A stretch of DNA of 38,369 nucleotides from Candidatus Fermentibacteraceae bacterium (lineage in GTDB: Bacteria > Fermentibacterota > Fermentibacteria > Fermentibacterales > JCC-6): assembly GCA_016744855.1 (NCBI GenBank), contig JADGDO010000014.1, forward strand, positions 64,661 through 103,029, written 5' to 3'. The notes beneath the pieces are model-generated. The model had not been told where the DNA came from. It saw only the letters and a program-made list of their open reading frames with translations, and did no database searches. This document shows positions 1,723 to 37,777 of this stretch, piece by piece (the stretch's first letter is position 1; every line of letters starts with the position of its first letter). The position numbers were made by a program, and so were the translations under genes.

Positions 1723-3198
1723 TTACTCTCCACTATCTTCTGTTATGCACCAATTAGCCTGCCCTTTGTTGTTGAGGTGCAGGAGGTAGCGCATAGACCC
1801 AACCTTAACGGCAACCGGAAGAAAGCCCGGGCCGAAAGGAGCAAGACTTGTGAACTGCCCCGGTTTAGGGAGTTTTTCTAAAAATAGATCGATGTGAGGT
1901 GCCGGTACAGGGTTGGTAGGGTACTCAGCCATGTGTGCAATCAAATGCTCACGCAATTCAAGCCACTCGGTTCCCTCATATGCAAAGCCGGCTGCTCTGT
2001 AATGTCCACCGGCGCTGGAGAAAATATCTCTCATGCTTACAAGAAAGCCTGCCATGTTCCAGTCGCCTATGGATCTGGTGTCTCCAGAGAGTTTACCATC
2101 TTCACGGCGGGTAACAATGATAGCTCCTCTGCGGTAAATCTTGCAGAGTCTGCTGGCGAGTGTTCCACCCATGCCGCCTGGAATATCATCGAGGTAAACC
2201 AGAATCATTCCAAGGGCATCTGCTTCAGGGTCTTTTTTCTTTATTGCTTTGGTTACGACTTCACCAAGAAGATGTCCTCTCTCCTCGCTGCTTCTCTGCA
2301 TAGAATCCCAGAGATTCTGGCACCATGTGGCGTCATAGCTGAACATGAAATCTATCATAGAGGAAATACCGGAGCTGTCTCCTTTACCTATTGTACTGGT
2401 TATCTGCTGGCGGACCATTGCTCCAGTCCATGCATTCTTGCGGCAGGGCCATTTCTTGAGAAGAAGTTTCAGCCCTTCGGTGAGTTTTGTTGGATCTATT
2501 AGCGAGAAACAATGAAGTAAATATCTGTTCCACTCTGTGAACGGTACCCTGTCGCTTACAGTCCCAAGAGCAACTGCTGCTAGTAACTGTGGATCATTAT
2601 CCCATTTGGGGAATATGTGAGAGAGGGCAGCGTAAAGCACACCGCATCCAGCGAGATCTGCAGCTGCGCCACCTGTAATCTGTGGATCGACCATGCCATG
2701 CGCAGGAGGCAGAGGAGGATTGAGTGTGTGGTGATCTGTGATAACAATCCTTGCTCCGTGCTCGCGGGCCCAGGTAACACCAACAACTGCGCTGCAGCCA
2801 TAGTCGACCGTAAGAAGAAGGTCTCCCGGATCTAAAACTCCCTCGAGCCTGCCTGGTCTAATTCCGTAGGTCTCAATATCTCTGCGCGGAACGATCGGTA
2901 CTACGTGAAAGCCCTCATTACGGAGAATACGCAAGCCGATAAATATGCCGGTCACGCCATCCATATCATCATGGCCGTAGAGGACAATCTTTCCACCGCG
3001 TTTTTTAAGTTCTTTTAATTCTTCTTCCAGAATATCAAGGTCGGGGAGTAGTTTTCCCCAGTCGGGTTTCGAAGGTAACCATTGGTTTACTGGGTCTTTT
3101 GAGTCAGGAAATCTGCTTTTAAGAACAGCTTTGGCTAGAGGGGTCAGCCTGGTTCTTTTCATGATTCGTTCGCAGTCGAATGTTCCCAGGCGTGCCAT
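1723..3198 (-). CDS. RecJ-like DHH/DHHA1 family phosphoesterase
   Basis: DHH-superfamily phosphoesterase of 491 residues, likely a single-strand-specific 5'-3' exonuclease of the RecJ type or a related nucleotide phosphodiesterase in the cytoplasm. Visible motifs are motif I GHDDMDG (75-81), VDYG (Asp132), TDHH (154-157) and a C-terminal DHHA1 signature GGHYRAAGF that binds substrate. Motif I has His where E. coli RecJ has the first Asp; His at this position is seen in archaeal RecJ-like and GAN proteins, so activity is plausible. Length is shorter than classical RecJ (~570), and the C-terminal OB-like part may be reduced. It is the first gene of a three-gene minus-strand run with the epimerase and lipoprotein; the gap to the upstream outer-membrane protein is 91 bases. 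DHH call firm; exact substrate inferred. Confidence 0.85.
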   Translation of the reverse strand: MARLGTFDCERIMKRTRLTPLAKAVLKSRFPDSKDPVNQWLPSKPDWGKLLPDLDILEEELKELKKRGGKIVLYGHDDMDGVTGIFIGLRILRNEGFHVVPIVPRRDIETYGIRPGRLEGVLDPGDLLLTVDYGCSAVVGVTWAREHGARIVITDHHTLNPPLPPAHGMVDPQITGGAAADLAGCGVLYAALSHIFPKWDNDPQLLAAVALGTVSDRVPFTEWNRYLLHCFSLIDPTKLTEGLKLLLKKWPCRKNAWTGAMVRQQITSTIGKGDSSGISSMIDFMFSYDATWCQNLWDSMQRSSEERGHLLGEVVTKAIKKKDPEADALGMILVYLDDIPGGMGGTLASRLCKIYRRGAIIVTRREDGKLSGDTRSIGDWNMAGFLVSMRDIFSSAGGHYRAAGFAYEGTEWLELREHLIAHMAEYPTNPVPAPHIDLFLEKLPKPGQFTSLAPFGPGFLPVAVKVGSMRYLLHLNNKGQANWCITEDSGE

Positions 3199-5381: not shown

Positions 5382-6853
5382 TGATTACACTAGTTGCAAT
5401 ACTCGCCATTATCAGTACTTCTTCCGGTGATTTTAGGGTCAGGGCAGAGCACAGCTGGCCTGATCCAGCCGGAATTATGGAAAATCTGTGGGAGGGAAGC
5501 TCTCTCTCTTTTTACCAAAGGCTACGTCTCGACTTCGAAAAATGGTCCGGGGTTATTTTTATGGAGAAAGACCCGGGAGAGGAGCTGGGAGACCTTATTA
5601 CCGGTGGTCTTGCCTGGAATGCTTCGACTAGTTTCAAGGTGGTAGCCGGCGCTCTCAGGGTGCAGTTTGCACACGGTCTGGTTCTGAACCATCCCGGCCC
5701 CTGGTCGGGAAGCGATCCTCTCAACCTTTCAAAAACACCGGCATTCAGGGTTCGCGTGGATCTTTCAGAAAGTCCCGGAGGTAATGATGCCGAACCCCTC
5801 ACCGGGGCTGCTGCTGAATACAATTTTGATTCCTTTACCATTTCAACAGTACTGGGTTGGTCAAAAACAGATACAGGCTCCTCGGGACTTCACAGAACAG
5901 AGAGCGAGCTTCTGAACAGGCGTGCTATTGAAGAAAAACTAGCCGCTTTTAGGGTTGGTTATGGCCCTGCAGGAATATCAGCGGCCCATATAGTATCTGA
6001 AGAGGATAATGTGACTGAATCCGTAACAAGGATCAGCGCTGATTTTCAACTGCAGGCTGAAGATGCCGTGCTGACCGGTGAGGTTGCAGCAGACTTTGAT
6101 TCCACATTCAATTTTCTTCTCTCCTGCAGCAGGGGGCAAAGTGACTTTCGCCATGCCATTTCTGTAAGCAGGCTAACTGGAGAGTGGCCCAGAAGCGGTG
6201 CAGATTCAGGTGCAAATCACAGAATAGGTGCGGGTTACGGGGTTAGGTGGAAGCCATCCGGTCGTGTCACCCTGGATGCCGGGCTGCAGCTTCTGGACAC
6301 CTATGATGTTAATCAATGGAAACTAGGATTTCAGGTGTCTGAAAGAATTGCCACAAGAACATCACTTACTCAGCGCTTTAAGCTGACTGCCTCAGAGCAG
6401 GGAAGAACATATCGCTTGCAGGCTTCTACCTCATGGAGCCCGTATCGCGATCTCACATTTACCATAAAGCTTCCTCTTACACTATTTCAAAATTTGGACG
6501 ATTCAGGAGAAGACGAAAACGGTGCCGGGATAGAGATCCGCTTAAAGCACCACATTCCGATGGCATTGATGGATATCACGGTTTCTGCCGCAGCAGCCGG
6601 AACAGATGGATGGAACAGCAGAATCTATGCATATTCTCTTTCATTCCCCGGAGAATTCGGCTCTCGTGCTCTTTACAATTCGTCTGCTCTTCTCCAGGGA
6701 GCAATTTCTCTGCATATTTCGGAAAGCACAGCTCTTCGGCTAAAGGCTTCTTTCCTTGCAATGGAGGGAGCAGAGTCACTGGGCAGTGGCAGCAGTGAAA
6801 CAGAGGGTTCATCCAGAACATCCGCCGGGATGCAGCTGGACTGGAGTTTCTAA
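5381..6853 (+). CDS. predicted outer-membrane beta-barrel, partner of HhH protein
   Basis: 490 residues, translationally coupled to the HhH-barrel gene by a TAATG overlap. A short signal peptide (MITLVAILAIISTSSG) precedes a long run of amphipathic strands with frequent aromatic girdle residues. The protein ends in LDWSF, with a terminal Phe as in many proteins folded by the BAM machinery. The stretch around residues 85-120 (ALRVQFAHGLVLN, then PGPWSGSDPLNLSK) resembles the conserved segment of large barrels that accompany helix-hairpin-helix proteins in Bacteroidetes-like genomes; that comparison is from memory. No enzymatic motif is present. Because of coupling it may form a complex with the upstream protein, perhaps a DNA-passage channel, but that is a hypothesis from context only. 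Confidence 0.6.
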   Translation: MITLVAILAIISTSSGDFRVRAEHSWPDPAGIMENLWEGSSLSFYQRLRLDFEKWSGVIFMEKDPGEELGDLITGGLAWNASTSFKVVAGALRVQFAHGLVLNHPGPWSGSDPLNLSKTPAFRVRVDLSESPGGNDAEPLTGAAAEYNFDSFTISTVLGWSKTDTGSSGLHRTESELLNRRAIEEKLAAFRVGYGPAGISAAHIVSEEDNVTESVTRISADFQLQAEDAVLTGEVAADFDSTFNFLLSCSRGQSDFRHAISVSRLTGEWPRSGADSGANHRIGAGYGVRWKPSGRVTLDAGLQLLDTYDVNQWKLGFQVSERIATRTSLTQRFKLTASEQGRTYRLQASTSWSPYRDLTFTIKLPLTLFQNLDDSGEDENGAGIEIRLKHHIPMALMDITVSAAAAGTDGWNSRIYAYSLSFPGEFGSRALYNSSALLQGAISLHISESTALRLKASFLAMEGAESLGSGSSETEGSSRTSAGMQLDWSF

Positions 6854-6870
6854 CAATTGAAGGAGAACAA

Positions 6871-7344
6871 ATGAGACCATCGTGGGATCAGTATTTTCTC
6901 AAACTTGCCATGCTGGCGAGTGAAAGAGCAACTTGTCCCCGCATGCATTGCGGGTGTGTTCTGGTAAAAGACAAGCATGTGCTTGCAACAGGTTACAATG
7001 GTTCACTTCCCGGGCTGCCGCATTGTGAAGATGTTGGATGCCTTATAGTGGACAATCATTGTATTCGCACGAACCATGCAGAGATGAACGCCCTTATGCA
7101 GGCGGCCAAGAACGGTGTTTCTATCGATGGTGGAACTGCCTATGTAACCAACATGCCCTGCACAACATGTGCGAAGGCCCTTATAGGAGCGGGTATAAAG
7201 AGAGTTGTTGTTTTCAGCAATTACCATTCTACTCATGCAGAAACGTTTTTCAAGAATGCAGACGTTAGGCTCGACAGGCAGCCTATTCCTGAGCAGGAGA
7301 TATCCTATGATCTGGATGGTTATTCCAGTGCTAAGAAATTCTGA
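6871..7344 (+). CDS. comEB: dCMP/deoxycytidylate deaminase family protein (ComEB-like)
   Basis: Zinc-dependent cytidine/deoxycytidylate deaminase, 157 residues, the usual length for dCMP deaminase. It converts dCMP to dUMP for dTTP synthesis in the cytoplasm. The zinc site is complete: HAE (His69, Glu71 as proton shuttle) and PCTTC (Cys97, Cys100). The typical N-terminus (WDQYFLKLAMLASERATCPR), GCVLVKDKHVLATGYNG and a second Cys/His cluster (HCEDVGCLIVDNHC) match bacterial ComEB/dCMP deaminases. The start ATG follows AAGGAG by five bases and sits 17 bases after the barrel gene, so it is the third gene of the operon. In Bacillus, comEB lies between comEA and comEC, so its place beside a ComEA-type HhH protein parallels that order, although ComEB is not needed for uptake there. 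Confidence 0.92.
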   Translation: MRPSWDQYFLKLAMLASERATCPRMHCGCVLVKDKHVLATGYNGSLPGLPHCEDVGCLIVDNHCIRTNHAEMNALMQAAKNGVSIDGGTAYVTNMPCTTCAKALIGAGIKRVVVFSNYHSTHAETFFKNADVRLDRQPIPEQEISYDLDGYSSAKKF

Positions 7345-7383
7345 ATTGTAGCCGATAGTAGAATACAGAATCAGTGAAAGGTA

Positions 7384-7977
7384 TTAGCGTACGAAGGCTT
7401 TAATGAATGCCCATGTATTCTGGCCGAATCCGTTTGAGAAAACACTGTTCTGATGACCGGGTGTGCCTTTGTCTCCATCTCCGTAGGAAATTGTACTGTG
7501 CAGCCAGCTTTCCCTGTCAGATGCAGCCCAGCCTGGATTCAGTCTTTCCAGAGATGATCCCGGCTCTATGTCCCAGCTATTGTCCCAGCTGAAAAACTCC
7601 TGAATATCACTGTCACTATCGCTTAGAAGCAGGCTTCCGGTTTGAGACAGTGAGAAGGTTCCCCATACCACATCGGGAGAGTAGTTCCCATTCTCAAATG
7701 CGATACTGCTTGAACCAACAACGAAATATCCATCCGGTGGAATAACATGAGAGGAAAAAAGAATGACCTGGTCTCTCTGATTCTTTATCGACCATTCAGA
7801 AATATCTACCCAGTCGGAGCTGTTGTTGTACAGCTCTATCCATTGACCCATTTCAGTAGAAGATGATGCAATAGGATCAATCATGATTTCATTTATAACA
7901 AGGCCTCCTCCATCGGTAACTCCACCGATAGGTGCCACTCCGTTTGTCACCATAAGCACAGTAAGAAGCAATATCAT
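7384..7977 (-). CDS. secreted lamin-tail-domain protein with TWxxIK C-terminal tail
   Basis: About 197 residues with a signal peptide from the ATG at 7977, preceded by a strong AAAGGGGGAG site; the frame extends to 8070 but without a better start. Residues ~25-90 form a lamin tail domain: LVINEIMIDP, QWIELYNNSSDWVDISEW and VIPPDGYFVVG are characteristic of this immunoglobulin-like fold, found in many exported bacterial proteins. The middle part is a Ser/Asp-rich second half of the domain. The last residues are NTWAFIKAFVR, which match the tails of three other secreted proteins in this window (17919, 18713, 31760). It is convergent with the ComEB gene, with only 39 bases between stops and no obvious terminator. 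The domain is clear; the role (adhesion, surface display or other) is unknown. Confidence 0.8.
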   Translation of the reverse strand: MILLLTVLMVTNGVAPIGGVTDGGGLVINEIMIDPIASSSTEMGQWIELYNNSSDWVDISEWSIKNQRDQVILFSSHVIPPDGYFVVGSSSIAFENGNYSPDVVWGTFSLSQTGSLLLSDSDSDIQEFFSWDNSWDIEPGSSLERLNPGWAASDRESWLHSTISYGDGDKGTPGHQNSVFSNGFGQNTWAFIKAFVR

Positions 7978-8123: not shown

Positions 8124-9398
8124 TCAGGCGTTAACATACGCTGCCAGATCCAGGTATCCATGTCCGCTAAGATTGAAAAGAATTACTTTATTCTCTCCTG
8201 TCTCCTTTGCGGCCAGTGCAGAGTCAATTGCCGCCGTTATTGCGTGGGTTGATTCAGGTGCGGGAAGAATTCCTTCTATTTGGGTAAATTCTTTTCCGGC
8301 AGCCAGCACTCTCTTCTGCTCGTATGCAACCGGGTTCACAAGCCCAAGTTTTACCAGGTGACTCACCAGTGGGGCCATTCCGTGATAGCGCAATCCACCA
8401 GCATGGATAGGGGGAGGTACAAAGCCGGCTCCAAGTGTGTACATCATGTATTTTGGAGTGAGCCCTGAAGCATCCCCAAAATCGTATTTGAGTTTTCCTT
8501 CAGTAAGAGTTGGGCAAACCGTTGGTTCCACTGCGGTGAAATCAATGTGTCCGCCACCTGTCAGCATTTTTTCTATGAAGGGGAATGCAATCCCTGCGAA
8601 ATTAGAGCCTCCACCGACGCATCCAATAATTTCTGTGGGGTACTCACCCATTTCTTCCATTTGAAGTATCGATTCCTGCCCGATGATTGATTGGTGAAGG
8701 CAGACAGCATCTGAAACGCTGCCCAGACTGTAGCAGGATTTGCTTTCAGTGAGAACGACTTCGACAGCCTCACTTATTGCTATACCAAGACTTCCCGGGT
8801 GTTCAGAATCTTCGGAGAGAAATTTTCTGCCGGATTCTGTCCTGTCACTTGGGCTGGCACAAACTCTTCCTCCATGCATGTTAATGAATGTTTTGCGAAG
8901 AGGTTTCTGCAGATAACTCGATCTTACCATGAATACGTCGAGATCCAGGTCAAACATATTGCATGCCTGAGAAAGAGCACTTCCCCACTGCCCCGCACCT
9001 GTTTCAGTTGTAATTCTCGTTATCCCGTCCTGAGCGGCAAAATAGGCCTGAGGAAGTGCCGTGTTGCTCTTGTGGCTTCCCGCAGGATTAGTTCCCTCGT
9101 ATTTGTAGTAGATGTGTGCCGGTGTGTCCAGAAAGCGCTCCAGCTCAACAGCTCTGATAAGGGGTGAGGGTCTGTAGACCTTGTATGCATCCAGAACTTT
9201 TTCTGGAATGGGAACTCTCGGCTCCAGAGTTACTTCGTGCTCTATCATCCCAGATGGGAAGAGAACAGAAAGAGCCTCGGGTCCTACAGGGGTTCCATCC
9301 GGACCTACTGGAGGAGGAGGAAGAGATGGAAGGAAGGGTTTTATATTCGTGTATTCTGTTGGAATGAAATCGCTACAACGCGATGAAAATCTACGCAT
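8124..9398 (-). CDS. trpB2: TrpB2-type pyridoxal-phosphate-dependent tryptophan synthase beta-like enzyme
   Basis: 424 residues, PLP-dependent fold-type II enzyme of the TrpB2 branch, which condenses indole with serine (or phosphoserine) to tryptophan. The Schiff-base lysine lies in AGSHKSNTA (Lys110), TTETGAGQWGSA follows, and the PLP phosphate loop is GCVGGGSNF. Typical TrpB2 features are the N-terminal extension rich in Pro (FLPSLPPPPVGPDG), YRPSPLIRA and the inserted region around residues 165-215. The C-terminus ends normally. No trpA or other trp gene is nearby; lone TrpB2 is common and is thought to salvage indole or work without the alpha subunit. ATG start with AGGAG six bases upstream. 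The 193 bases between it and malQ contain nothing recognisable. Confidence 0.93.
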   Translation of the reverse strand: MRRFSSRCSDFIPTEYTNIKPFLPSLPPPPVGPDGTPVGPEALSVLFPSGMIEHEVTLEPRVPIPEKVLDAYKVYRPSPLIRAVELERFLDTPAHIYYKYEGTNPAGSHKSNTALPQAYFAAQDGITRITTETGAGQWGSALSQACNMFDLDLDVFMVRSSYLQKPLRKTFINMHGGRVCASPSDRTESGRKFLSEDSEHPGSLGIAISEAVEVVLTESKSCYSLGSVSDAVCLHQSIIGQESILQMEEMGEYPTEIIGCVGGGSNFAGIAFPFIEKMLTGGGHIDFTAVEPTVCPTLTEGKLKYDFGDASGLTPKYMMYTLGAGFVPPPIHAGGLRYHGMAPLVSHLVKLGLVNPVAYEQKRVLAAGKEFTQIEGILPAPESTHAITAAIDSALAAKETGENKVILFNLSGHGYLDLAAYVNA

Positions 9399-9591
9399 GA
9401 CGTACTCCTGTATTGTTAATATTAAGAATTTTTAGTATTCTGAAAACTGTGATGTATAGAACTACAGAGTATTAATTATGGACGGAAGAACCCGCCCAAC
9501 AGCACCATGCGAATGCGCTGAAGAGTACAGAACTGTTCGGAGTGAAGTTTATGCCTCTCATGGCAGTAAAATGCTAAAATTAAAAAAAATG

Positions 9592-10953
9592 TCAATTGCC
9601 TCTTATAACAGGTACAGTTTCAGTGAACTCCTTCATTCTCCAGCTCCAGTTACCCGAGTCTTTCGATGGAGTATTCATCCTTGCCGAGGAATCCAGCTGC
9701 AGGATATCCTGCATGGGAATTACCGCCAATCCAGAGGGAGAATCAAGAGCCATTTCAATCAGACTACCTACGGAATTGTAACCAAGATTCTTACCTGTTG
9801 AATCAATCCACCCGACAGTTGTGTCATTGTCGTGAGTGCCTGTATAGATGACACTGGAAGAATCAACTTCTGCTGCTACGAATTCAGGATTTTGAAGCGC
9901 AAATTGCAAAACCACCATACCGGGGAAACCACAGAGTTTTCGAAGCTCGTGCACAGAAGAGGTTATTAAACCCAGATCTTCCGCGATCAACGGGAGTTTC
10001 CCGATTGATTTTTGTAGTTGGTTGAAAAGATCAATGCCGGGTCCCTTTACCCATTTCCCGTCAACTGCTGTGTTAGCTCCGCTCGGTATTTCCCAGTATT
10101 CATCAAAAGCCCTGAAGTGATCTATGCGAACGGCATCGTACATTTTGAGAGCTGCCTTAATGCGCTCTGTCCACCAACTGTATTCTGATGCTGCACAAGC
10201 GTCCCAATTGTAGACAGGGTTACCCCACAACTGTCCTGTTGTGCTGAAATAGTCCGGGGGTACGCCTGCTACAAAAGTAGGCAGCCCCTCCTCGTCTAAT
10301 TTGAAGAGATCTCTGTTGAAGAAAACATCAACAGAGTCGTGAGCCGTGTAAATAGGGATGTCTCCGAGAATACGAATTCCCAGAGAATTACAGTGATCCT
10401 TGAGTTTTGACCACTGCTGGAAGAAGAAAAACTGAATCATGGCATGAACTGCAGATCTGCTTTCACTTGGGGGATTGGTATTTGTCCAGAGAGTCCAGGG
10501 TAAACCGTTGTTCATTTCCTTCTTTGCCGCGAACCATTCCCATTCCTTGACCCATTGCTGTTCGCGGAATTCCTGAAACCCCGGGACCCCATTTTTTACA
10601 GCACGCGCTGCTGCCAGTTTTAGTAGCTCGGTTCGTCCTAAAAGAGATTCCCAGCAAACTGTTGACTTATTTTCAGATTTTGCTGAAGCAAGCTCAGTTG
10701 AAGATATGTATCCCTGCTTGTACAATTCATAAGGGGAGATAAGAAGTGGGTTTCCCGCAACTGAAGAGAGGGCCTGGTAGGGGGAATTAGCATAGACCGG
10801 TGGAGAAAGGGGAAGTACCTGCCATACATTGAAACCCGAATGGGTCATCCATTCGGCAAACCTGAAAGCCTCCCGGCCCAGGGTTCCAATACCCCATTCA
10901 CCCGGTAGGGATGTGGGATGAAGCAGCACTCCCGTATCTTTTGTGAAAAGCAT
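9592..10953 (-). CDS. malQ: 4-alpha-glucanotransferase (GH77)
   Basis: GH77 amylomaltase of about 453 residues, close to the short bacterial form (~500). It transfers alpha-1,4-glucan segments between maltodextrins, releasing glucose, in cytoplasmic glycogen or starch metabolism. Conserved landmarks are GVLLHPTSLPG at the start, PLSPPVYANSPYQ, GDIPIYTAHDS, the nucleophile in DAVRIDHFR (Asp278), the acid/base in LIAEDLG (Glu325) and the transition-state Asp in GTHDND (Asp375). The C-terminus retains PMQDILQLDSSARMNTP and ends GNWSWRM, as in the family. The start at 10953 is the ATG after GGAGG and is followed directly by the conserved N-terminus; a longer frame reaches 10998. Upstream lie two inverted repeats. 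Identification is firm. Confidence 0.95.
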   Translation of the reverse strand: MLFTKDTGVLLHPTSLPGEWGIGTLGREAFRFAEWMTHSGFNVWQVLPLSPPVYANSPYQALSSVAGNPLLISPYELYKQGYISSTELASAKSENKSTVCWESLLGRTELLKLAAARAVKNGVPGFQEFREQQWVKEWEWFAAKKEMNNGLPWTLWTNTNPPSESRSAVHAMIQFFFFQQWSKLKDHCNSLGIRILGDIPIYTAHDSVDVFFNRDLFKLDEEGLPTFVAGVPPDYFSTTGQLWGNPVYNWDACAASEYSWWTERIKAALKMYDAVRIDHFRAFDEYWEIPSGANTAVDGKWVKGPGIDLFNQLQKSIGKLPLIAEDLGLITSSVHELRKLCGFPGMVVLQFALQNPEFVAAEVDSSSVIYTGTHDNDTTVGWIDSTGKNLGYNSVGSLIEMALDSPSGLAVIPMQDILQLDSSARMNTPSKDSGNWSWRMKEFTETVPVIRGN

Positions 10954-25116: not shown

Positions 25117-25437
25117 TTACTGGCAACCGCCGCCGCCACATCCACCGCCACCGCAGTGAGATTCTTCTACTTCAACTGCTTCTTCAACTGCATCGCAGTC
25201 CTCGCACCCACATGTGCATTCCTCGTCACACATCTCAGATTCACAGTTGCAGCAATCTCCAGTGCAGTCTTCAATTGTGCCCTCGCATGTGCAGTCATCT
25301 GTAACGGTCTCATCGATGTCTTCACAGGTACAGTTATCACATGGGGTAACTCCATCGCAATCCTCATGATCGCAGTCGCCTCCAAGGGCAAATCCTGCAA
25401 GCAGTAGCACCATCATACCAAGTGTAAGCAGTTTCAT
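25117..25437 (-). CDS. secreted, acidic, extremely Cys-rich protein (metal-binding candidate)
   Basis: 106 residues with a signal peptide (MKLLTLGMMVLLLAGFALGG), so the ~86-residue mature protein is exported. It contains 19 cysteines, mostly in CxC, CxxC and CC pairs, within a sea of Asp and Glu and almost no basic residues. The end is striking: HCGGGGCGGGGCQ. The composition suggests a periplasmic or surface metal-binding protein analogous to a metallothionein, or an unusual disulfide-rich protein. It is the last of three genes after an ArsR-family regulator and the 49-residue Cys-rich gene, 18 bases downstream of the latter, with CGGAG eight bases before the ATG. A strong terminator follows. 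I know of no family that it matches; metal binding is inference. Confidence 0.8.
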   Translation of the reverse strand: MKLLTLGMMVLLLAGFALGGDCDHEDCDGVTPCDNCTCEDIDETVTDDCTCEGTIEDCTGDCCNCESEMCDEECTCGCEDCDAVEEAVEVEESHCGGGGCGGGGCQ

Positions 25438-32453: not shown

Positions 32454-33053
32454 TTAAGATGACAAGTCCTTCATTTTTATAACAAGATCATAGGGCTTTC
32501 TAAGAGAAAGTTTTCTTTGGTCACGGCAGAACTTGCCTATCGTTTTGCCCCGGTGTAGAAGACGTACAACAGAAGCGGGATCTGTTGAAATGGATATCGT
32601 TGTTATCTTTGGTTTCCAGAACAGTCGAACGATGCCTGATTTGCGAAGAAGGGAATAAACCTTGCGAACAGAAAGGCGAATAACTCCCGCTCTGTTTAGA
32701 AGTCGAGCACGAAATTCCCCAGCAAACCCACCTGTTACTTTTCTTCTTGAACCGGAGCGCTCATAATAAATGGCCTTGCCGAGTATCCTGGTAAGGCAGA
32801 TCTTTTCAATTTCATCATAAGAATTATTGTCTCCACGAGTAAGCAAAAAGGAAGAACCTACCTTGAGTATCCTGTGAATTACATCTTCACTACCCGAATC
32901 CTCGCCTGAATAAACTATCACATCCCCTGCCCTGAGAGATTCCAGAGGAACGCTTTTAAAGTAGATACAATCTCCACTCCGAAAAGTATGCCTCATACTG
33001 CGCCCGTGATAAAATCGGAACGAAAGAGAAGAAACCTCTACTGATTCAGGCAT
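32454..33053 (-). CDS. S26/S24-type signal-peptidase-like protein without membrane segment
   Basis: 199 residues. The first half has the serine peptidase core of family S26: GRSMRHT with candidate nucleophile Ser19, GDVIVY, VIHRIL with His60 and LTRGDNN (73-77). This is the Ser/His layout of the eukaryotic/SipW-type branch rather than the Ser/Lys of LepB. There is no transmembrane helix, so it is probably cytoplasmic. The second half (~100-199) is very basic (RRKVTGGFAGEF, RLLNRAGVIRLSVRKVYSLL) and unassigned. It overlaps the HprK-like gene by 16 bases. Such soluble S24/S26-like proteases recur in peptide-maturation clusters with PqqD and HprK-like proteins, so it may remove the leader of the precursor at 34913. 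Protease fold moderately sure; leader role inferred. Confidence 0.75.
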   Translation of the reverse strand: MPESVEVSSLSFRFYHGRSMRHTFRSGDCIYFKSVPLESLRAGDVIVYSGEDSGSEDVIHRILKVGSSFLLTRGDNNSYDEIEKICLTRILGKAIYYERSGSRRKVTGGFAGEFRARLLNRAGVIRLSVRKVYSLLRKSGIVRLFWKPKITTISISTDPASVVRLLHRGKTIGKFCRDQRKLSLRKPYDLVIKMKDLSS

Positions 33054-33502
33054 TTCAGGATAGCCTCCTGGTCAATATAGTCTTTAGGAAACTTCATCAG
33101 GTAAGCAGGCACTGAAGTTGCTAGGTTGCGGTATATATCGAACATAGCTTCCCTCTTGCAGCCAGGCAATATAAAGCTTAATGTGGAGTGCTCATTCCAA
33201 AGGCTTGCCAGTAACTCTCGAGAAGCAAGTGGCTTGAGACTGAAAGAATCTGCTTTTTCTAAAAGAAAAAAGGCACGGGGAAGAGTTGGAGCTGGATGCG
33301 GAGTAAAGGTGGTCCATGGGGTGCCATATGCAAGCCATCTATCCTTATCATCCTTTTTAAAGAGAGTTTGATCGTCTGCAACAACAGTTCCGTTGTCACA
33401 AAGTCTTGCCGCAGTAGTTTTACCACCTTCGTCCATAGCGAGAAAAACAGCAGCATGCCCATCAAAGGAAACACAGGAGCAATGTATCATAACGGCGTTC
33501 AT
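33038..33502 (-). CDS. short HPr-kinase-like protein with degenerate P-loop
   Basis: 154 residues, similar to the C-terminal catalytic domain of HPr kinase/phosphorylase-like proteins. It has an IHCSCVSFDGHAAVFLA strand pair and a nucleotide loop AMDEGGKTTAA (22-32), where the usual GxSGxGKST has lost its first Gly. VADDQTLF is the acidic motif that normally binds magnesium. It is much shorter than HprK (~310) and lacks the N-terminal half. The start at 33502 has no clear ribosome site; an in-frame stop lies just upstream. It is coupled to the S26-like gene by a 16-base overlap. Together with the gene at 33934 it gives the locus two HprK-like proteins. It may be an adaptor or chaperone rather than an active kinase. 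Confidence 0.72.
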   Translation of the reverse strand: MNAVMIHCSCVSFDGHAAVFLAMDEGGKTTAARLCDNGTVVADDQTLFKKDDKDRWLAYGTPWTTFTPHPAPTLPRAFFLLEKADSFSLKPLASRELLASLWNEHSTLSFILPGCKREAMFDIYRNLATSVPAYLMKFPKDYIDQEAILKCLNQ

Positions 33503-33700
33503 ATATTACTTGCCAGAATTATCAAGATGTATCTTCCTCCAGGGGCGAAGATATACTAGAATACTGAAATCACATTAAAACGATAATCGGGTAATAAATA
33601 AAGTCAATATAATCTGCCGTGCTTTCACGTACTACTGTTTTAAGAGGACAGTTTTAAGTTTCGAGGCGTAGTGCATGAGTATCGAAAAGGTTAATGCATG

Positions 33701-33940
33701 TTAATCGGAAGTTCTATCCGGAAGTAGAAGAGATCTTACTAACTCAATATCTTCAGATGTAGTTTCTGTATCTACTTGATCAGCTCTGTTAAGAGCCGAA
33801 TCAATATCAGCATTTGTATCAATCAGGATCTGCAAAACGGCAAGAGCAGAAGAGTTTACCCTGAATAAACGCTTATCAGCATGCCTAAGGACAAGTGCTT
33901 CCTCATCAAATATTTCAAAGCTAAATTGATTTATCAGCAT
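33701..33940 (-). CDS. PqqD-like peptide-recognition protein 1
   Basis: 79 residues in the PqqD/RiPP recognition element fold: an N-terminal beta pair (FSFEIFDEEALVLRHADKR), LFRVNSSALAVLQIL (helix with the typical N-x-x-A/G start) and a final helix (EDIELVRSLLL). PqqD-type proteins bind the leader of a precursor peptide and present it to modifying enzymes. The start codon overlaps the last seven bases of the HprK-like gene at 33934, so the two are translationally coupled. A second, longer PqqD-like protein is encoded at 37499. Sequence is divergent, so confidence is moderate and rests partly on context. Confidence 0.72.
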   Translation of the reverse strand: MLINQFSFEIFDEEALVLRHADKRLFRVNSSALAVLQILIDTNADIDSALNRADQVDTETTSEDIELVRSLLLPDRTSD

Positions 33941-34809
33941 ATATCTGCAGTTTCCATTTCATTGTCAATTGTATCCCAAATATTGGTATTTATATTTGCG
34001 TGAATCCTGAAGCAGGGTGTTCTTTTCGCTAGATCAGAAAAGAAATGAAATGCCTTTTCATAAGTTTTAGAAGGAAGAGCTTTGACAAATGCGGTGTCTG
34101 TAAACAGACCCAGGAGAAGAACGGTTGCATCTATGCTGTCAACTTTCTCAATCCATGTCTGATCTCTGATTTTATCACGACTTGGAAAAATAATAGCCTT
34201 CAGAGGATAAACAGAAAAAGGATCATCACCCCACACTGATCCATGATAATATATTGGATTAAAAGTGAACTCGGCCCAGCGTGGCCCTGCTAGAAGGCCG
34301 TACATACTTTCAGAAAGATCTCCCAAGTGTTTCGAATTGAGAGTTAGTGCAGATAGCTCATCGCATAAAACAAGATTCTCTTTTTGTGATAGTTTTGAAA
34401 TTGTTGTTTTGCCTGACCCGCTTTGGCCGGGGAAAATATATCCAGCATTATTCCTTACAATAGAAGCAGAATGCATAAGATAGATACTCTCTTCACAGAA
34501 AATGTATGAGAGAGCAATTGATATTCCCATGTTAGCAAGAACCTGACGTTCCTCAACATATTTTTTATTGATATCTATGAAAACAGATTTTCCATTTGCG
34601 TAAATATTAACAGAATCTCTAAAACACAAAACATATTTCTTATCATGTATTGCTAAGTTATCACGAAGAGCAATTTGAATTTGATATTTGACATTTTTAA
34701 ATGACTCTGATTTTGAATTATACGGTTTACATACATGTGGCAAAGCAGCCCGAGAAAAGCCATGTACTTTGTCTACTGATATTAGGATGATATGATCAGT
34801 GTTTGGCAA
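33934..34809 (-). CDS. HPr-kinase-like protein (ScmC-like)
   Basis: About 291 residues with the HprK catalytic core: a strand-turn IYLMHSASIV, a perfect Walker A GQSGSGKTT (128-136), and LCDELSAL with a candidate magnesium/catalytic Asp at about 150. The C-terminal half has YPLKAIIFPSRD and other mixed alpha/beta elements. In HprK this fold phosphorylates a Ser in HPr. In peptide clusters, HprK-like proteins such as the paeninodin kinase phosphorylate the precursor; in SynChlorMet cassettes the homolog is called ScmC. Start assigned to a TTG at 34809, with no ribosome site nearby. The frame stays open further upstream, and an ATT eight bases after AAGGA (near 34834) is an alternative. Gene is real; start and exact role are unsure. 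Confidence 0.78.
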   Translation of the reverse strand: MPNTDHIILISVDKVHGFSRAALPHVCKPYNSKSESFKNVKYQIQIALRDNLAIHDKKYVLCFRDSVNIYANGKSVFIDINKKYVEERQVLANMGISIALSYIFCEESIYLMHSASIVRNNAGYIFPGQSGSGKTTISKLSQKENLVLCDELSALTLNSKHLGDLSESMYGLLAGPRWAEFTFNPIYYHGSVWGDDPFSVYPLKAIIFPSRDKIRDQTWIEKVDSIDATVLLLGLFTDTAFVKALPSKTYEKAFHFFSDLAKRTPCFRIHANINTNIWDTIDNEMETADIC

Positions 34810-34912
34810 ATTAACACTATATTTAGTAATAATCGTCGAATTCCTTCTTGAAAGAATGCAGCTTGTATTGGAAGAAGTTAACTCACTAAGTTAATAGTAT
34901 GTCAAAATAGTC

Positions 34913-35158
34913 CTAAAAAGACCCACCCTCACTGCACATGCTGGCCGCAGTTGTGCCTGGCAAGCACCATGCTGCCTGTGTATCATGTAACCCCCCGCCA
35001 CCGCAGGCGTGAACTGTGGACCCAGCCTCGCATTCAGAGCCGGATGCTGATGGAGTAATTCCGGACTGGCATAGACCCATTGGCATTTGCGCTGATCCAA
35101 TCATCATACTGCCCAAATCCTGTATCACTGGTTTGATGTAAGTCTTCTTCTTGCTCAT
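34913..35158 (-). CDS. putative RiPP precursor peptide, Cys/Gly-rich
   Basis: 81 residues from the ATG at 35158 (AGGAG seven bases upstream). The N-terminal ~28 residues (MSKKKTYIKPVIQDLG, then SMMIGSAQMPMG) follow the K-x-Y-x-x-P-x-x-x-x-LG leader pattern common to lasso and radical-SAM-modified peptides. The C-terminal ~50 residues are core-like: five Cys (30, 43, 52, 65, 75), a GGGG run (53-56), many Ser/Thr/Gly/Ala and the end MCSEGGSF. It lies between two radical SAM/SPASM genes upstream and HprK- and PqqD-like genes downstream, which is strong context. No signal peptide or enzyme motif. The modification could be thioether formation by the radical SAM proteins and perhaps Ser phosphorylation; these are inferences. 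Confidence 0.8.
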   Translation of the reverse strand: MSKKKTYIKPVIQDLGSMMIGSAQMPMGLCQSGITPSASGSECEAGSTVHACGGGGLHDTQAAWCLPGTTAASMCSEGGSF

Positions 35159-35261
35159 TCTAATGCTCCTAACCATTTTATCAAAATTTAAAAATAGAAA
35201 TTCTTATACTTCATAACATAAGATGTCTTTTTCTTTTCTCAAACGCACAATTCTAAAAAAA

Positions 35262-36365
35262 CTATGCCATCCCCTTCTCATGAGAAGGTATTGTGAGTCT
35301 ACTTTCGGGAAAAAGACCAAGTTTTTCTGCTGTTTCACAGAAATGATAAGAGGAGTCAAGTCTTCCAGTTCTGTTAAAATTTGCTGCAACACAGGTACCT
35401 TTACACAAAAAACGATGAATACAATTTGAGCAGATGCCTGTAAGCCTTTCAGGTACTGTTTCTCTGAGTTTAGAAAGTTTAGGTGACTTCACCCATATTT
35501 CTCGCAAACAATCTGTTTTGATGTTTCCATAAAGCAATTCATCTACTGATGTGCCGATACCGCAAAGGGCGAGGCCTCCATCAGAAAGCAGACCCATAAT
35601 ATTCAGAACATTACATCGTCCAGGTGCGCTTCTCAGAAAACGTGCTGGTTTTCTGAATGCCATTGGTATATCCGGATGTATGCTAATTTTCATATTGTTC
35701 GAGAGGTCATTTTCTATCATTTTATCAATTGCAATTATTTCAGGAACAGAGAGGGAATTTTCATCATCGAAGTCCATACCTCTGCCTACCTGTTGCACAT
35801 GGTTGAACTTGATAGAACTGCATTTTAGCTCTTCGGTCAGATTTACAATGTCTTTAATTTGTGAGATGTTGTTTTTGTGGAGTGTGCAGATTACCTGAGG
35901 TCTAATGCCTACTTCAACAAGGTTTTTTATACCTTGTACTGCCATATTGAAACAACCTTTAACCCTTCGAAGTTCTTCATGGGTCCTAGCATCTGCCCCG
36001 TCGAGGCTCACTGAAATGAATCTAAAGTATTCTGTATCTCTAAGAAATTTTGCCATTTCCTTATTTACGAGCGTTCCATTTGTTTCTATGACAATGCCAA
36101 GTTTCTGGGACGAGATATAGTTGACGATTTCCTTAATTGCAGGATTCATTAGTGGTTCGCCGCCGGTGAGCTTTACAGATGAAAGACCAAGCGGCTTACC
36201 CTGCTTTACCGCTTTTTTTACCAGCTCTATGTCTAGGTGCAGGCTGGTTTTTGTTCCAACTTCCTGATAGTCAGGATTGATCCAACAGTGGGTACAGTTA
36301 AGGTTACAAGCACCGGAAGCATAAATGTAAAGGGAGGTGAGTTTGGGAACAGACGTCTCTGTCAT
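35262..36365 (-). CDS. radical SAM/SPASM peptide maturase 2
   Basis: About 367 residues from the ATG at 36365 (AAGGAA upstream; a longer frame to 36392 overlaps the previous gene). It has the radical SAM [4Fe-4S] motif CNLNCTHC (Cys20, Cys24, Cys27), the SAM-binding KLTGGEPLMN, VSLDGAD, and a C-terminal SPASM cluster region with several Cys (GRCNVLNI, GLALCGIG, GICSNCIHRFLCKGTC and a final FCE). Such enzymes crosslink or otherwise modify ribosomal peptides using a 5'-deoxyadenosyl radical. It starts four bases after the stop of maturase 1, so the two are one transcript, and the precursor gene follows 103 bases downstream. Most similar in context to ScmE/ScmF of SynChlorMet. Modification chemistry cannot be read from sequence. 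Confidence 0.92.
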   Translation of the reverse strand: MTETSVPKLTSLYIYASGACNLNCTHCWINPDYQEVGTKTSLHLDIELVKKAVKQGKPLGLSSVKLTGGEPLMNPAIKEIVNYISSQKLGIVIETNGTLVNKEMAKFLRDTEYFRFISVSLDGADARTHEELRRVKGCFNMAVQGIKNLVEVGIRPQVICTLHKNNISQIKDIVNLTEELKCSSIKFNHVQQVGRGMDFDDENSLSVPEIIAIDKMIENDLSNNMKISIHPDIPMAFRKPARFLRSAPGRCNVLNIMGLLSDGGLALCGIGTSVDELLYGNIKTDCLREIWVKSPKLSKLRETVPERLTGICSNCIHRFLCKGTCVAANFNRTGRLDSSYHFCETAEKLGLFPESRLTIPSHEKGMA

Positions 36366-36369
36366 GTCT

Positions 36370-37524
36370 CTATTCCTTCCTAGGATATGCATCGTACACG
36401 CTTGTTATTGCGTTTGCAGCAAGAAAGTCCTTATAACAGTTTCGCCAGCTCGGAGCAATTATGGTATTTTGCATCTGCTGTACGATTCCCGGGCAGCCAC
36501 CGTTACAGTAATCTGCCCATTCACAATTTCTACACTCATCGATGTCAGACATGGGAATACAATATCTTTCTCTTGTTTCTTGGATAACCCGGCTATTATT
36601 CCATAGTTCCATAAGATCATCTGTGAGGAGATTTCCCATAGTAAGAGCGTGGAGCATTGTGCAGGGAGTGACGGCACCATCATGGAGAACTCCAAGCTTG
36701 CTGAAAACGCCACCACATGAGGAGAGATACCCCATCTTCCAGCGGTTGCTAAGTTTACCACTTCTTTTGCTTTTCTCCATTTCCCGGAACATCCTAAGCT
36801 TAACAAGTGGACCAGCTTGTGCCGAAATTCTGCCTTGGTACTTTAGCTGAAGATTTTCTAGTCTTTTACCTACTGCAAGTATTTCACAGTGGTCTAGAGC
36901 AAGCTCATCGCTATATGTACATCCTGTGCCTATAGGAGATGCTTCGTTGTTGGTCATAGAGGGCAGACCAATATCTTCAAGAAGGAATGCAGCCATGTCT
37001 TCAAGGTCATCCATGTTGTGACGGCTTATGGTTGCTCTGACTGTTACTGGGAAGCCATTTTTTTTTAGAAGCCTGAGACCTCTTACCGTTCTGTCAAAAC
37101 TATCAGGTCGACTTCTGTTGTGAACTTCAGCACAGGAGCCGTCAATTGAAATCTGTATGCTATCCAGCCGGAGGCGTCTTTTCCCCTTGCTGAATTCTTT
37201 TATTGTATCTTCAGTAATAAGTGTGCCGTTGGTAAGTATGGAATAGCGCATTCTGTTTTCTATTACCGAATCAACTAGTTCAAAGAAATCGCTTCGGGAG
37301 AATGGTTCACCACCGGTTAAAGTAACACGCATAATTTTTGCATCACCAAGTTTTTTAATATTTTGTTTCCACTGTTCTGTTGTGAGGTCATTCAGAGCAA
37401 CCATCTCGTCAGAGTAAAAACAGTACCGGCACTTTAGATTGCATTTTCCTGTGATGGAAATATCTGCAGATGCAGGAAATTTAGAATGCTCAGGTATTTT
37501 ATTGGCTGGAGGCAAGGAATCCAC
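36370..37524 (-). CDS. radical SAM/SPASM peptide maturase 1
   Basis: 384 residues with the radical SAM motif CNLKCRYC (Cys28, Cys32, Cys35), VTLTGGEPFSR, ILTNGTLI, QISIDGSCAEVHN and a SPASM tail (SSCGGVFSKLGVLHDG, TPCTML, then DECRNCEWADYCNGGCPG and a late NCY). The SPASM Cys arrangement differs from the neighbouring maturase, so the two enzymes probably do different steps or act as a pair. It overlaps the PqqD-like gene by 26 bases, the usual arrangement of a recognition protein with its cognate radical SAM enzyme. Start ATG at 37524. Context and domain order resemble PqqE-like and SynChlorMet enzymes. Confidence 0.92.
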   Translation of the reverse strand: MDSLPPANKIPEHSKFPASADISITGKCNLKCRYCFYSDEMVALNDLTTEQWKQNIKKLGDAKIMRVTLTGGEPFSRSDFFELVDSVIENRMRYSILTNGTLITEDTIKEFSKGKRRLRLDSIQISIDGSCAEVHNRSRPDSFDRTVRGLRLLKKNGFPVTVRATISRHNMDDLEDMAAFLLEDIGLPSMTNNEASPIGTGCTYSDELALDHCEILAVGKRLENLQLKYQGRISAQAGPLVKLRMFREMEKSKRSGKLSNRWKMGYLSSCGGVFSKLGVLHDGAVTPCTMLHALTMGNLLTDDLMELWNNSRVIQETRERYCIPMSDIDECRNCEWADYCNGGCPGIVQQMQNTIIAPSWRNCYKDFLAANAITSVYDAYPRKE

Positions 37525-37777
37525 CTTCTGTCATTATGGTCAGGTAGTTGTTAATGTCTTCTTGAAGGCTTTCTGGAAGGTCCTTGTAGGAATTGTTAAA
37601 CTGTTCAAGTATTTTGCTGATTGTTGAGCCTATTTTACAGAGATCCCAGATGAATCTGCCAGTTTCGTTAATTACCAGGACTTGTCCCGTGTCAGGGTTA
37701 TACAGCAGGCTGCCGCTATCATCTTCATCTCTTAGAACAACATCTGTATTTCTTAGATATATTTTGTGTTCACTCAT
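37499..37777 (-). CDS. PqqD-like peptide-recognition protein 2
   Basis: 92 residues, a better match to PqqD than the copy at 33701: two N-terminal strands (YLRNTDVVLRDED, SLLYNPDTGQVLVIN) and ETGRFIWDLC, the characteristic helix start. STISKILEQF and the following ~30 residues supply the last helices. These proteins bind the precursor leader and deliver it to the adjacent radical SAM enzyme, with which this gene overlaps by 26 bases. ATG start with AAAGAG upstream. It appears to be the first gene of the maturation operon; a 138-base spacer with no visible gene separates it from the transporter gene. Confidence 0.88.
   Translation of the reverse strand: MSEHKIYLRNTDVVLRDEDDSGSLLYNPDTGQVLVINETGRFIWDLCKIGSTISKILEQFNNSYKDLPESLQEDINNYLTIMTEGGFLASSQ

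Follow-up and report, generated by a model that had tools for sequence, protein, structure and literature searches.

A SynChlorMet-like RiPP cassette in Candidatus Fermentibacteraceae, probably with an LPP-type back end and rebuilt through recombination

Organization of the locus

The cassette occupies positions 32454–37777 of the window, by which we mean the whole 38,369-nucleotide stretch that was analyzed, and consists of eight open reading frames, all on the minus strand. As the initial annotation had described, the genes form a single block with stop/start overlaps, which we find in four gene pairs: D/E (26 bp), E/F (23 bp), H1/D2 (7 bp), and H2/S26 (16 bp). The features are as follows.

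37499–37777, minus strand: D, PqqD-like RiPP recognition element (RRE), 92 aa
36370–37524, minus strand: E, radical SAM/SPASM enzyme, ScmE-like, 384 aa, CxxxCxxC present
35262–36392, minus strand: F, radical SAM/SPASM enzyme, ScmF-like, 376 aa
34913–35158, minus strand: A, precursor peptide, 81 aa, with a YIKP leader and five C-x-x-G motifs in the core
35129–35140, minus strand: leader motif YIKP of A (Y7–P10), of the [Y/W]xxP kind to which discrete RREs bind
34916–35071, minus strand: Cys-rich core of A, with CQSGITP, CEAGSTV, CGGGGLH, CLPGTTA, and CSEGGSF
33934–34809, minus strand: H1, HprK-like kinase, 291 aa, TTG start
33701–33940, minus strand: D2, small protein, possibly a second PqqD-like RRE, 79 aa
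33503–33700, minus strand: spacer, in place of the missing N-terminal half of the orthologous HprK
33038–33502, minus strand: H2, HprK-like, kinase half only, 154 aa (305–312 aa in relatives)
32454–33053, minus strand: S26, archaeal-type signal-peptidase-like leader peptidase, 199 aa, Ser19, His60, and GD at 74–75

An alternative ATG upstream, at 35176, would extend peptide A to 87 aa. Upstream of D the contig continues for 592 bp, in a draft assembly of 107 contigs that is probably metagenome-derived. The G+C content of the cassette is 0.408 versus 0.469 in the remaining window; the A+T richness initially read as a sign of acquisition is thus present and compatible with it, but constitutes weak evidence because several orthologous cassettes are likewise low in G+C. 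The locus itself is beyond chance, since both its gene order and its peptide recur in orthologous loci.

A sister branch of SynChlorMet

SynChlorMet is a computationally defined system, for which our literature search found no experimental study and no report of a product, cross-link, or phosphate from any cassette. The window contains its gene set in one cluster: a pair of SPASM radical SAM enzymes with E preceding F, a PqqD-like protein, an HprK-like protein, and a short Cys-containing precursor (models for ScmA and ScmC–ScmF: TIGR04252, TIGR04249, TIGR04248, TIGR04250, and TIGR04251). The best model for E is ScmE TIGR04250 (340.8 bits, cut-off 400) and for F is ScmF TIGR04251 (381.5 bits, cut-off 400), which places neither SPASM protein among sulfatase maturases or unrelated families. 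In Pfam, E matches Radical_SAM (4.8e-30) and SPASM (1.4e-9), while the CxxxCxxC motif and seven SPASM cysteines of F are invariant across 15 relatives. Both enzymes are close to those of a genome of the same genus, G001 (81% identity for E and 77% for F). D exceeds the Pfam PqqD gathering score (2e-11), is 57–64% identical in orthologous cassettes, and has ScmD TIGR04248 as its best NCBIfam model (55.1 bits, cut-off 100); against the ScmC cut-off of 125 bits, H1 and H2 score 24.1 and 19.4. Canonical ScmF copies reach ~550 bits in other loci (L011, L041, and L042) and 551.8 bits in a separate cassette of the same genome (contig C30). The SynChlorMet-like assignment of the initial annotation therefore stands for the best-matching families, but all curated cut-offs are missed, making this a sister branch and not a certified member. 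Judged from its sequence, the cassette represents a branch, not yet covered by models, of a widespread, uncharacterised peptide family, and it differs from SynChlorMet in its longer peptide with five CxxG motifs, its S26 protease, and its two HprK-like genes.

A conserved precursor signature

The ScmA model TIGR04252 failed as a precursor finder: it did not match the 81-aa peptide, exceeded its cut-off in none of 44 related genomes and none of 42 Fermentibacterota genomes, and found no match in control genomes either. Nearly all precursors at SynChlorMet-type loci may thus far escape the available models. Peptide A is the only ORF of its kind within the window, is 52% identical to the peptide of locus L043 and 27–31% identical to those of orthologous cassettes, and shares invariant Y, P, C, G, C, and G residues with the family in 13 peptides. 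Across 80 ScmF-type loci from many phyla, a peptide combining [Y/W]xxP with at least three CxxG motifs occurs at 55, compared with ~1 of 80 in shuffled DNA; YxxP alone gives 50 loci versus 1–3 in the shuffles. The family repeat, derived from 338 cysteines, reads C-x-x-G-[S/G/T]-x-[A/P], with Gly at +3 in 84%. The conservation in orthologous loci and the shuffled-DNA comparison rule out a chance ORF, and the proposal that the Cys-rich peptide belongs to the locus, which its absence from homologous loci would have undermined, is borne out.

Kinases, second RRE candidate, and leader peptidase

H1 matches HprK_rel_A (1.1e-5) and ScmC (2e-5), and its AlphaFold model (mean pLDDT 68.7) resembles the PEPCK fold (Foldseek 7.9e-6) and the HprK/P fold (5.3e-3). 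Its catalytic set comprises His, Lys, and Asp, but the second Asp is replaced by Glu; His113, Gly133-Lys134, and Asp150 are invariant in 16 homologues. H2 is 59–64% identical to full-length orthologues over their C-terminal half, with His7, Gly27-Lys28, and Asp43-Asp44 invariant in nine homologues, and keeps all four His-Lys-Asp-Asp residues of lasso-peptide kinases (PMC9266682). Its frame has no internal stops, and its dN versus the G001 copy is 0.291 (E 0.118, S26 0.383), the comparison being limited to dN because synonymous sites are saturated in most genes. No remnant of an N-terminal half was found upstream of H2: the three-frame translation of 33503–33700 is full of stops, and tblastn gave no match there to the N-terminal halves from G001 and G026 (best E 0.18). 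H2 may be a non-functional remnant.

D2 was initially paired with D as a second PqqD-like protein, which is clear for D and weakly supported for D2: its best model is lasso_PqqD_Strm (E=4.5e-4), followed by daptide_RRE (0.07), no Pfam model matches, and the profile-profile comparison with the first PqqD family is not significant (probability 0.4%). A single-sequence AlphaFold prediction gave a low-confidence all-helix model that was left unused. D2 also lies downstream of H1 in L043 and L145.

The S26-like protein just misses the cut-off of TIGR02228 (48.3 bits, E 9.6e-13; cut-off 51.85), and its Ser, His, and GD are conserved in ten homologues; the catalytic residues of LppS, for comparison, are S29/H68/D93 (PMC13381572). 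Around ScmF at the 80 loci we counted ScmE 76 times, PqqD 70, HprK 58, S26 42, ABC 40, and NTP5 28. With S26 at 42 of the 80 loci, its reading as a special addition to the SynChlorMet set is ruled out.

Mosaic structure of the cassette

Orthologous cassettes (G001, G016, G025, G026, G028, G035, G038, and G039) have the order D-E-F-A-HprK-S26 where complete, and in close relatives the HprK lies between peptide and S26. The peptide-HprK1-PqqD2 module (A-H1-D2) occurs elsewhere only in two related genomes, and close homologues of H1 are confined to two other genomes of the phylum (G032/G034). Peptide A scores 67–69 bits with G032/G034 versus 14–24 with type I peptides. In the window, the module sits where one would expect the native peptide followed by the first half of the native HprK. 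The doubled genes thus look like the mark of a mosaic cassette, apparently stitched from two related operons. We propose that the module displaced the native peptide together with this N-terminal part of HprK, which would explain why HprK and PqqD-like genes each occur twice. Identity of A and H1 to the remaining copies of the module is only ~50% (49–52%), which leaves no donor among the genomes compared. No clean empty site exists at the window locus, where the MATE gene and a 910-aa gene are differently arranged in relatives. Cassettes do get swapped: the site of another cassette of this genome (C41) holds a different cassette in G007, between flanking proteins of 59–71% identity.

The initial annotation saw an expanded system. 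The doubled genes are indeed there, and the second HprK and PqqD could be functional additions serving extra modifications instead of recombination leftovers, a reading we consider a serious contender at somewhat under even odds. The open frame and intact His-Lys-Asp-Asp set of H2 fit it, as do ~170-aa HprK-like proteins standing alone in other cassettes (e.g., L012, L044–L047) and the two PqqD or two HprK genes at some ScmF-type loci beyond the window. However, H2 is only the C-terminal half of its ortholog, the remainder having been lost, and A-H1-D2 moves as a unit in two other genomes, for which a mosaic is the better account. Both accounts can hold together, provided that H2 is active in its shortened form.

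Proposed maturation pathway

Our preferred reading, with a probability of about 0.7, is a SynChlorMet-like RiPP cassette that ends in LPP-type steps and was rebuilt through recombination. Sequence provides the support for the gene families, the conserved peptide, the catalytic residues, and the mosaic structure; the chemistry, order of steps, and export are inferred. The PqqD-like RRE D would bind the YxxP leader of A, as demonstrated for the RRE LppB (PMC13381572), and offer the core to the ScmE-like and ScmF-like enzymes, which most likely form thioether cross-links from the C-x-x-G cysteines, perhaps as four-residue rings. The HprK-like kinases would phosphorylate Ser/Thr of peptide A, and the S26-like peptidase would remove the leader after cross-linking and phosphorylation; precursor phosphorylation by HprK-like kinases and cleavage by S26 proteins have precedents (PMC9266682, PMC13381572). 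A transporter would then export the product.

It is unlikely that the output is instead a linear, polyphosphorylated-type peptide, made chiefly by phosphorylation and S26 leader removal, with radical SAM chemistry other than thioether formation (e.g., epimerisation, C–C or ether links). Although S26, RRE, HprK, NTP_transf_5, and ABC in relatives together equal the genes of an LPP cluster (PMC13381572), the most pronounced feature of the precursors is a Gly at +3 from Cys, as expected of thioether substrates, and sactipeptide maturase models are among the lower-scoring matches of the ScmE-like enzyme E. An assembly artefact, with A-H1-D2 drawn from another locus or organism, is improbable: the genome is a draft and the module is otherwise found in a different genus of the family, but it shares strand, operon-like spacing, and similarly low G+C with its neighbors, and, as it is not close to any compared genome, a known relative is an unlikely source of simple contamination. 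Least probable of all is a metal-binding or disulfide peptide whose cysteines stay thiols or disulfides while the radical SAM enzymes work elsewhere, which suits the repeated Cys and Gly and the lack of a known cross-link but not the finding that, across many phyla, such peptides carry an RRE leader motif and are paired with two SPASM enzymes.

More tentatively than for the cassette itself, SynChlorMet-type systems may form a large multi-phylum radical SAM peptide class defined by [Y/W]xxP in the leader and by C-x-x-G-[S/G/T]-x-[A/P] repeated in tandem, with one small ScmE/ScmF thioether ring per repeat, a shared kinase/S26 back end, and swapped peptide-kinase modules. Through the repeat signature, most ScmF-type loci gain a candidate substrate, and the chemistry of ScmE/ScmF can therefore be tested directly with short co-expressed peptides. 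The mosaic suggests that precursor and kinase are exchangeable between maturation cassettes.

Relation to other known systems

The cassette connects radical SAM peptides with a recently described kinase/S26 leader-peptidase system, the LPPs (leader peptidase LppS, kinase LppK; PMC13381572), with which it shares an archaeal-type signal-peptidase-like leader peptidase, a discrete RRE, a YxxP leader, and an HprK-like kinase. Descriptions of LPPs include neither radical SAM enzymes nor Cys repeats, and of their leader motif YxxPxVLxHQxIxFETxxS peptide A has only YxxP. The likeness extends to an NTP transferase and MsbA-like exporter in relatives' cassettes: an MsbA-like ABC pump and NTP_transf_5 adjoin these and the C41 cassette, and both occur in L033, L040, L145, and L012. 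The window cassette, in contrast, has neither an ABC nor an NTP_transf_5 neighbor, although the contig stops a short way upstream of D, and is adjoined by a partial MATE gene.

Paeninodin-type phosphorylated lasso peptides (PMC9266682) likewise combine an RRE and an HprK-like kinase acting on the precursor with a YxxP/WxxP leader, but the window has radical SAM enzymes instead of a lasso cyclase and B2 protease. Streptosactin and other sactipeptides (PMC13361665) share the SPASM maturase, and their four-residue thioether rings offer a possible model for CxxG, although streptosactin has a single maturase, and HprK and S26 are absent. The peptide of one relative, L047, weakly matches StsA (E=0.0089).

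A sister branch of SynChlorMet

The cassette at 32454–37777 forms a single block of eight minus-strand ORFs, with stop/start overlaps at four pairs. The window sits at one end of contig C13 in a draft genome of 3.24 Mb from a Fermentibacterota bacterium, and the contig stops just upstream of the cassette. In transcription order, the genes are:

37499–37777, minus: D, PqqD-like protein
36370–37524, minus: E, radical SAM/SPASM protein
35262–36392, minus: F, radical SAM/SPASM protein
34913–35158, minus: A, precursor peptide of 81 aa
33934–34809, minus: H1, HprK-like protein
33701–33940, minus: D2, 79 aa
33038–33502, minus: H2, HprK-like protein
32454–33053, minus: S26

Both E and F contain Radical_SAM and SPASM domains. 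Among NCBIfam models, E scores highest with ScmE, at 340.8 bits, and F with ScmF, at 381.5 bits, each below the cut-off of 400. The top model for D is ScmD (55.1 versus a cut-off of 100), the ScmC model weakly matches H1 and H2, and the SynChlorMet precursor model TIGR04252 gives no match to peptide A. Because E, F and D are best matched by Scm models but under the cut-offs, and TIGR04252 is silent, the cassette is, judged by model scores, a sister branch of SynChlorMet. The literature searched, with most subscription journals outside it, yielded nothing on SynChlorMet chemistry. Elsewhere in the window, a small acidic Cys-rich protein (25117–25437, minus; C-terminal end CGGGGCGGGGCQ) is probably secreted, maybe metal-binding, and bears no relation to the cassette.

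Mosaic structure of the cassette

Relative to their counterparts in G001, a genome of the same genus, E shows 81% and F 77% identity; synonymous sites are saturated for most genes of the cassette. Peptide A scores 67–69 bits against peptides of two other relatives, G032 and G034, versus 14–24 bits against type I peptides. Among 42 genomes of the phylum, close H1 homologues occur in G032 and G034 only, where A-H1-D2 are consecutive and located downstream of F-S26-D'. The HprK adjoining S26 in the family's orthologous cassettes measures 305–312 aa, of which H2 retains the last 154 only; no trace of the N-terminal half of the native HprK was found in the window. Orthologous cassettes with a full-length HprK occur in G001, G016, G025, G026, G028 and G035; the full-length form is also present in G038 and, more distantly, in other phyla, so by sequence comparison the short H2 is a derived state. 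From these comparisons we conclude that a peptide-kinase-D2 module took the place of the original peptide and of one half of the original kinase.

The genome carries two further cassettes. L011, on contig C30, has a canonical ScmF (551.8 bits) and a peptide at 6897–7094; its ScmE gene is split into two overlapping frames (8258–9076 and 8934–9356, minus) by a frameshift or a sequencing error. L012, on contig C41 (8370–14487), reads D-E-F-HprK-S26 with an HprK of 170 aa, an ABC transporter and NTP_transf_5, and no recognisable precursor peptide. Its chromosomal site is occupied in genome G007 by a different, type I cassette (L147); the proteins on either side share 71% and 59% identity, the D proteins 28%. 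Exchange of whole cassettes is visible at this site.

The precursor peptide and its CxxG repeats

Sequence comparison assigns peptide A to the cassette. Orthologous cassettes of relatives encode a peptide of ~83–92 aa with five core Cys after F, and in 13 peptides compared, the leader Y and P and two CxxG units are invariant. Among 80 ScmF-type loci from a profile search of public genomes, 50 contain a small ORF that combines YxxP with three or more CxxG-like motifs, versus 1–3 in shuffled sequence; with WxxP also allowed, the count is 55/80 versus 1. The TIGR04252 cut-off was reached in none of 44 surveyed ScmF-locus genomes. Of 338 cysteines, 84% have Gly at +3, partly by construction because the counted peptides were selected for CxxG-like motifs, whereas the preferences for Ser/Gly/Thr at +4 (63%) and Ala/Pro at +6 (56%) are not. 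In the canonical cassettes L011, L041 and L042, the peptides combine a WxxP leader with four CxxG units; the window peptide has YxxP, so its genome carries both leader types. Tandem paralogous precursors, with two CxxG units each, occur in Bacteroidota loci L063 (five, 6308–7508) and L074 (two, 2292–3117), and one type I cassette (L038, genome G039) has two differing adjacent precursors (9161–9439 and 9480–9743, minus).

Kinases, S26 and a proposed pathway

Within 7 kb of ScmF, the 80 loci contain ScmE (76), PqqD (70), HprK (58), S26 (42), ABC transporter (40) and NTP_transf_5 (28), all lower bounds because some contigs end early; weak-scoring matches in the last two counts may include unrelated members. 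The gene set for linear polyphosphorylated peptides consists of S26, RRE, HprK, NTP transferase and MsbA-like transporter. In that system, leader cleavage by the S26-type LppS requires the RRE LppB, and Ser is phosphorylated by the kinase LppK (PMC13381572). Lasso-peptide HprK-like kinases phosphorylate the C-terminal Ser of the precursor and require His-Lys-Asp-Asp (PMC9266682). All four residues are present in H2; H1 has Glu at the last position, and its predicted structure matches PEPCK and HprK/P folds. The S26 protein retains Ser, His and the GD motif.

Most likely, D would bind the YIKP leader of A, E and F would introduce cross-links at the five CxxG units, Ser/Thr would be phosphorylated by H1 and perhaps also by H2, and S26 would cut off the leader. 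Streptosactin offers a precedent for thioether rings of four residues (PMC13361665), so by analogy a ring joining Cys to the residue three positions from it is plausible. At two other loci, a protein that by eye resembles sulfotransferases and has a C-terminal PqqD domain lies between HprK and S26 (L051, 10863–11696; L052, 10392–11201; plus) and might add sulfate to the peptide.
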